A stretch of DNA of 32,959 bases from Planctomycetota bacterium (GTDB lineage: Bacteria; Planctomycetota; Planctomycetia; Pirellulales; UBA1268): positions 1 through 32,959 of the forward strand of contig QWPO01000028.1 of assembly GCA_003669255.1 (NCBI GenBank), read 5' to 3'. The notes below the pieces were generated by a model. It did not search any database and was not told where the DNA came from. It worked only from the letters and a program-made list of their open reading frames with translations. Position 1 is the stretch's first letter. Each line of letters starts with the position of its first letter. A program made the translations under genes and the position numbers. Below are positions 14,506-32,959 of this stretch, piece after piece.

Positions 14506-14639
14506 GCCGGCCCGGATGGCCGGCCCGCCGACAGGCTGCAACGGCCACGATGGCGTTGCAGCCCACACAGCTGCCGGCCCGGATGGCCGGCCCACCGTCA
14601 GGCTGCAACGGCCAGGATGGCGTTGCAGCCGTAAAGCGG
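14506..14639 (-). repeat. tandem duplication of a 67-bp unit, each with two hairpins
   Basis: GCCGGCC-CGGAT-GGCCGGC (14506-14524, 14573-14591) and GGCTGCAACG...CGTTGCAGCC (14534-14563, 14601-14630), both offset by 67 bp. Confidence 0.9.
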
Positions 14640-14718
14640 AGGGCACGGGATTCGAACCCGCAACCGATTTCTCGGCATCTGATTTCGAGTCAGACCGCTA
14701 GCCGTTCGCTTACCCTCC
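14637..14718 (-). tRNA. tRNA-Ser(CGA)
   Basis: Minus strand GGAGGGT...GCCCTCC acceptor (terminal G-T), anticodon arm TCTGA-CTCGAAA-TCAGA, long variable arm, T-arm GCGGGTTCGAATCCCGT. Confidence 0.92.
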
Positions 14719-29406: not shown

Positions 29407-32121
<2,715 letters not shown>

Positions 32122-32403
32122 GGCGGTAGGGTTTTCTGAGGCGTGACGGGGAAGGATGACTCAACAGGATGAGGGCAGCGGTGGACGGTAGCGTAACGGA
32201 CACCCCGTAGGCCGGAGAAGCGGCCCAAACAGCGTGTCCAACGGCCCGCCGGCTCACCACCGTGGGCCGGCACGACGCAGGCACCTCCAACGGAAACCTG
32301 CAAAAGCCCTGGAAAAAGACCCCTAACCGGCAGATTTTGCCGCGGCGACCGCCATCGGGAGGTCGATCCAGAAAAAAAGGGTCGACGCGAAGGCGGAACC
32401 TAA

Positions 32404-32548
32404 GGTATGGTTGGAGAGCCGTGGGCATGAGCCGGCGGCCACACCATACACCTCGATTCTCTTCAGCGGCTGTTCCCCCCCCCAAAGACCCACACATCGA
32501 TAGCCGCTACCGGACCCGTGGTTTTCGAACCACGGGTCCTTTTCTTTT
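32404..32548 (+). ncRNA. candidate intergenic small RNA with three stem-loops
   Basis: Hairpin GTATGGT/ACCATAC (32405-32449), hairpin AGCGGCTGTT/GATAGCCGCT with C9 loop (32465-32508), terminator hairpin with U-tract; no convincing + CDS in the interval. Confidence 0.55.
32512..32548 (+). terminator. intrinsic (Rho-independent) terminator, plus strand
   Basis: GGACCCGTGGTT-TTCG-AACCACGGGTCC (12-bp perfect stem) followed by TTTTCTTTT; no T-tract on the opposite strand. Confidence 0.92.
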
Positions 32549-32583: not shown

Positions 32584-32959
32584 TCACCCCACGACGCCGC
32601 GATCGAGCAGACCGTCGATCAGCGCTGAACGCGTGTCGATCGGCGACGTGCGGCGGTTGGCCGCCGGTGCGGCGAGAATCTCTCGCGTTTTCATCAGCCG
32701 CCGGCCACCCGACTGAGCATCGTAGGCGTTGAGGGCGACCGTGAGCCGGCGATCGGCGGGCACGTCGGCCCCCTGATGCCGCAACCGTGCCGGTGCACCG
32801 CCATCCCCCGCCACGACCTCGAACGGCCACAGGGTGCGGTCGGAGTCTTTCTGCTTCGCGTCCTCGGCGACGATGGCGAGTAGGTCGGCGGCCGTCACCT
32901 CGGCGGTAACGAGCATGTTCTCGTAGGGAATGATCTTCCAGCAGTCGGCCACCGTGAGC
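32584..32959 (-). CDS. 5'-nucleotidase C-terminal domain, UshA-like (5' part outside window)
   Basis: LTVADCWKIIPYENMLVTAEVTAADLLAIVAEDAKQ...LTVALNAYDAQSGGRR; the listed GTG start looks like an internal Val, frame open to window edge. Confidence 0.8.
   Translation of the reverse strand, partial: LTVADCWKIIPYENMLVTAEVTAADLLAIVAEDAKQKDSDRTLWPFEVVAGDGGAPARLRHQGADVPADRRLTVALNAYDAQSGGRRLMKTREILAAPAANRRTSPIDTRSALIDGLLDRGVVG

Follow-up and report, generated by a model that had tools for sequence, protein, structure and literature searches.

A putative trans-acting antisense sRNA with a C-rich loop in one family of uncultured planctomycetes and its likely partner, a lipoprotein mRNA leader

Introduction

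In Helicobacter pylori, the small RNA (sRNA) RepG uses a C-rich loop to pair with a G-run in the tlpB-hp0102 leader, the product being membrane-associated (PMC8295292). The sRNA sX13 of Xanthomonas combines stable hairpins and C-rich loops with G-rich targets, and its targeting is driven by structure (PMC3771888). B11, a 6C RNA of the Actinobacteria, acts through a C-rich terminator loop (PMC12395582).

Here, we describe a putative sRNA gene from a Planctomycetota bacterium that invites comparison with these RNAs. It is located in a stretch of 32,959 nucleotides, referred to as the window. Like RepG, the planctomycete sRNA has a C-rich loop that matches a leader G-run, and in both systems a homopolymer varies in length. 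In RepG, however, it is the terminator loop that pairs, whereas the planctomycete sRNA would use the loop of a separate hairpin together with a stem arm; the repeat that varies in length is on the target side (G-run) in RepG and on the sRNA side (C-run) here. The two RNAs come from different phyla and have no sequence relation. The likeness to sX13 lies in the stable hairpins, the C-rich loops and the G-rich targets. In contrast, sX13 addresses many targets by short pairing with 4G motifs near starts, while the planctomycete sRNA has one target with 25–35 nt of complementarity. In 6C/B11 RNAs, two hairpins carry C-rich loops and the second is a terminator; here, loop 2 contains C7–13 and the terminator loop has CCCC in most relatives but is TTCG in the window. 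By analogy, the planctomycete sRNA would work like RepG, sX13 and 6C/B11, with a C-rich loop on a G-rich mRNA, and by the available tests it is a member of none of them.

Results

A sequence-only reading of the window had proposed a novel sRNA between acnA and the next gene. This was largely right: positions 32,418–32,548 of the plus strand hold a predicted stand-alone, previously uncatalogued sRNA gene of about 130 nt. Its features in window coordinates are as follows.

32,382–32,387, plus strand: −35 box TCGACG (family consensus TCGACA), kept at 55 of 55 sRNA loci, 17–18 nt from the −10 box
32,406–32,411, plus strand: −10 box TATGGT (family consensus TATRGT), coinciding with what the sequence-only reading drew as the outer hairpin-1 arm
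32,418–32,548, plus strand: predicted sRNA transcript of about 128–131 nt, its start placed by the −10 box and its end by the T tract, with support from the family alignment
32,418–32,439, plus strand: 5′ hairpin GCCGTGGGC-ATGA-GCCGGCGGC, variable in sequence and dispensable
32,454–32,491, plus strand: conserved pairing region CGATTCTCTTCAGCGGCTGTT-C9-AAAGACCC, nearly invariant in 48 distinct sequences
32,465–32,508, plus strand: hairpin 2, stem AGCGGCT/AGCCGCT (arms 32,465–32,471 and 32,502–32,508) with a 30-nt C-rich loop
32,475–32,483, plus strand: C9 run (7–13 C among relatives)
32,512–32,548, plus strand: intrinsic terminator, 12-bp stem (32,512–32,539) followed by TTTTCTTTT, at 55 of 55 loci

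The C9 run, hairpin 2 and the plus-facing 12-bp terminator are all found where they had been placed before. Likewise, an ORF check agreed that no plus-strand gene is terminated here. The flanking CDSs, acnA (start at 32,121) and the next gene (end at 32,584), are both on the minus strand, the gap contains no plus-strand CDS upstream of the terminator, and there is no ORF in the sRNA unit. The 145-nt stretch folds markedly better than its dinucleotide shuffles (z = −5.6; 0 of 200 shuffles as good).

The sequence-only reading had missed the promoter because hairpin 1 was drawn over the −10 box. A σ70-like promoter comprising TCGACA, a spacer of 17–18 nt and a TANNNT-type −10 box is present at each of the 55 aligned loci, 52 of which have TATNNT; the chance rate of this pattern is about 2% per 260 nt. 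As the outer arm GTATGGT is the conserved −10 box, the outer stem GTATGGT/ACCATAC is an accident of the promoter, the RNA would start near 32,418 and only the inner GGC-ATGA-GCC hairpin would be transcribed. The positions of promoter and terminator thus give an RNA of about 130 nt instead of the roughly 145 nt assumed before. An own promoter, an own terminator detected at every sRNA locus, the lack of an ORF and a conserved intergenic unit are what is expected of an sRNA gene, and their conservation across the family supports the plus-strand polarity that had been proposed.

In the family alignment, the order from the 5′ end is a variable hairpin, an A/C-rich linker, CTCTTCAGCGGCTGTT, C7–13, AAAGACCCACAC, the arm AGCCGC and the terminator. 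The conserved core is CTCTTCAGCGGCUGUU-C(7-13)-AAAGACCCACAC..AGCCGC. The inner hairpin 1 (GCCG.GGC-ATGA-GCC.GCGGC) is present in most relatives (mean folding z of −1.8) and was absent from four loci (L024, L047, L146 and L150) when the relatives were folded. Six of the seven pairs of hairpin 2 are invariant in 48 sequences and therefore carry no covariation information; the basal A-U pair varies (A-U, G-U, G-C and two unpaired). The G-U extension GTT/GAT, which the sequence-only reading had included in hairpin 2, occurs in the window but is not conserved, in contrast to the 6–7-bp stem GCGGCT/AGCCGC. Conservation of the stems in relatives was seen in the 48 sequences, in which stem 2 is invariant and the terminator covaries. 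In the terminator stem, 99.7% of the cells are paired and two-sided changes occur at 6 of the 12 pairs. For terminator and stem 2, the covariation score is 0.168 versus 0.089 in shuffles (0 of 500). These figures overstate independence because the relatives share a common tree. The signal was lost when the partners were slid by one column. The terminator loop contains CCCC in most relatives and is TTCG in the window.

With the locus DNA as query, one strong match was obtained in nearly every genome of the window's planctomycete family, covering 12 genera, and beyond this family the same search of relatives turned up nothing similarly strong. When genomes sampled from the order were searched with a covariance model (R1), 44 genomes of family f1 were recovered with E values from 1e-26 to 1e-33. 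Matches of the model elsewhere in the order were inspected and turned out to be bare terminators only. A sample of the phylum added only three weak matches (E about 1e-6) in the distant family f36. By analogy with the other matches in the order, these (G358:C49, G499:C47 and G318:C16; loci L198–L200) are probably terminators as well. Among the genomes searched, the sRNA was only found in this one family of uncultured planctomycetes. The most divergent genus (G022) has a second, diverged tandem copy (L048:2995–3086; E 5e-15), in which a C8 loop is kept, GACCC is replaced and the terminator is different.

The aconitase gene acnA is the divergent neighbour at most loci, as it had been described for the window. 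At locus L044, another gene and a distance of about 1.8 kb separate acnA from the sRNA, and the stretch containing L046 has no acnA; both loci nonetheless keep an intact sRNA with its promoter and terminator. Adjacency to aconitase is thus usual but dispensable, two genera having other neighbours, and for the same reason a role of the sRNA in acnA control is not supported. A gene resembling an esterase-like phytase, as judged by eye, lies between the sRNA and acnA or replaces acnA at these loci (L044:760–2655 and L046:923–2587).

The sRNA did not match any Rfam family at gathering or relaxed thresholds, which is in line with the novelty proposed for it. The best Rfam score of one relative was to 6C RNA (RF01066; 21.6 bits, E 0.75, cut-off 47), which had no match in the window. 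Over the element in the window, the best weak score was to ar15 (RF02345, AbcR family; 17 bits, E 0.5, cut-off 40). The ar15 sRNAs of Alphaproteobacteria have a similar trans-acting sRNA layout, and no sequence relation is apparent. The sole Rfam match in the window is a tRNA gene (14,637–14,718, minus strand).

A DNA search followed by a pattern scan revealed that, in many genomes, the sequence of the sRNA 5′ arm and loop recurs once more in shorter form. In all cases examined, this second site is antisense to a lipoprotein mRNA and lies between an upstream gene, usually encoding uracil-DNA glycosylase (udg), and a small lipoprotein gene. The lipoprotein (e.g. L065:2609–3148) carries a LAGCTMCPDPFDYAGPVPNG motif and has no Pfam match; it is conserved family-wide, and weak homologues occur in other parts of the order. 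Roughly 50–200 nt upstream of its start codon, the site is complementary to the sRNA pairing region in 52 of 53 leaders, an invariance that is part ascertainment since most leaders were first found via sRNA similarity. Only eleven leaders are free of this bias: twelve more were fetched by homology of the lipoprotein alone, one being too short to judge, and the site was present in 10 of these 11, the exception being G022. Where udg has given way to a different upstream gene (L191, L193 and L194), the site still accompanies the lipoprotein gene. As it is still there in genus g3 with another upstream gene, it belongs to the lipoprotein leader. On the sRNA-like strand of the second site, neither a promoter (0 of 41) nor a terminator (0 of 51) nor a 3′ arm was found. 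The window's own genome assembly, which is 52% complete, yielded no lipoprotein gene, so that we infer its partner from the closest relatives, e.g. G016.

Just upstream of the target site, the leaders contain a conserved block, TTTTCTGAAG..CGGTCGTGACGATCCGAT (e.g. L065:2468–2556 and L067:2498–2586). It could form a hairpin (CGGUCG/CGAUCCG) with G-U pairs on the mRNA strand only, and might serve as promoter, operator or structural switch.

Comparison of sRNA and leader from the same genome at ten core positions in 41 genomes gave 410 cells, of which 408 are paired (394 Watson-Crick, 14 G-U) and two unpaired, none being A-C; as the genomes are related, these counts overstate independent events. 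A shared DNA motif or a paralogue would predict G-U and A-C to be equally common, so 14 G-U versus no A-C argues against both. Two lineages only, G031 and G041, have G in place of A in the sRNA together with C in place of U in the leader. The predicted duplexes range from −42 to −72 kcal/mol, with a mean of −59 compared with −35 when the leaders are locally shuffled, and in the ten genomes tested complex formation is predicted to yield a net gain of 21–56 kcal/mol after the cost of unfolding. The lengths of the sRNA C-run and the leader G-run were not correlated in a single test that used a faulty pattern. Complementarity that is conserved towards the mRNA of a distant gene is the mark of a trans-acting sRNA. 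Towards its 3′ side, the loop carries CACACUUC, which is conserved yet mostly not complementary to the leader, and G022 retains the sRNA with a lipoprotein leader devoid of the site. Judged by these sequence features, further targets beyond the lipoprotein leader probably exist.

Discussion

The comparative data presented here make it likely that the locus encodes a trans-acting antisense sRNA with its own σ70-type promoter and terminator, the C-rich loop of which pairs with the leader of a lipoprotein mRNA. As far as genome sequences can document it, gene, promoter and terminator are conserved family-wide, and the near-perfect complementarity has been kept by an evolution tolerant of G-U pairs; that the two RNAs pair in the cell we infer. 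Given this complementarity to one particular leader, the sRNA very probably regulates the lipoprotein gene by base pairing.

Pairing would begin between the C-rich loop and the G-rich stretch of the leader (GGGUCGUGGGGGAGGGG or similar). Since the leader also contains AACAGCCGCUG, which is identical to the sRNA 3′ arm, pairing would then extend along the 5′ arm of the hairpin 2 stem and displace the 3′ arm, resulting in a duplex of about 25–35 bp. The sequence-only reading had envisaged a trans-acting sRNA whose C loop targets Shine-Dalgarno sequences. Trans pairing by the C loop is supported by the sequence comparison, but the conserved target is a leader element further upstream, and the stem 5′ arm would take part as well. 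Because the site is so far upstream, the duplex is unlikely to cover the ribosome-binding site, and a change in leader structure or cleavage of the duplex fits better as the way in which lipoprotein expression would be reduced. Repression is a guess towards which we lean. By analogy, activation is possible instead, as RepG can both repress and activate (PMC8295292). There is also a slim chance that slippage of the length-variable C7–C13 run tunes control of the surface lipoprotein, in a mirror image of RepG.

It is possible, if rather doubtful, that the sRNA is mainly a general repressor masking G-rich ribosome-binding sites by its C loop, with the lipoprotein leader as one of many targets. 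sX13 (PMC3771888) and RepG (PMC8295292) provide precedents. The sRNA always has an uninterrupted C run, which does not hold for its counterpart in the leader, the sRNA survives in G022 where the leader site is missing, and the CCCC in the terminator loop of most relatives is a second C-rich element. Against this, scans across the family revealed no other recurrent extended site.

Alternatively, the shared motif of 15–20 bp could be a DNA-binding site for a transcription factor controlling the sRNA along with the lipoprotein gene, as it recurs at two promoter-proximal places and its two copies have changed in step in G031 and G041. This is improbable. The motif lies 45–70 nt inside the transcribed region of the sRNA, the arm with which it pairs does not vary, as RNA folding requires, the C-run length ranges from 7 to 13, and the one-sided transitions between the copies are not predicted for a DNA site. 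Just as improbable is the idea that the leader element represents a second, paralogous sRNA antisense to the lipoprotein leader with an unrelated function. Sequence is indeed shared in the same order as in the sRNA 5′ arm and loop, and an ancient duplication could have given rise to the site. We reject this explanation because neither promoter nor terminator exists on that strand; moreover, it is invariably the leader of this one gene that carries the site, and the differences are asymmetric and preserve G-U pairing. That the hairpins are merely the end of a longer plus-strand transcript, or a terminator for acnA antisense read-through, has nothing in its favour beyond the terminator itself and is hardly credible in view of the conserved promoter directly upstream at all 55 loci and the persistence of the unit without acnA as neighbour (L044 and L046).

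By the comparisons above, we file the planctomycete sRNA as a putative new sRNA family; a Rhodopirellula-1 motif is listed by Weinberg et al. (2010). Our literature searches returned no sRNA work on this planctomycete lineage, and no sRNA of this kind from it was found in Rfam or in the literature searched. Both the length of the complementarity and its preservation across a whole family are unusual for a trans-encoded sRNA. As genomes alone have yielded its promoter and terminator, the covariation and the name of a target, the proposed sRNA can be tested directly. With its predicted pairing, the sRNA gives a handle on a lineage-wide lipoprotein that has no counterpart in Pfam.
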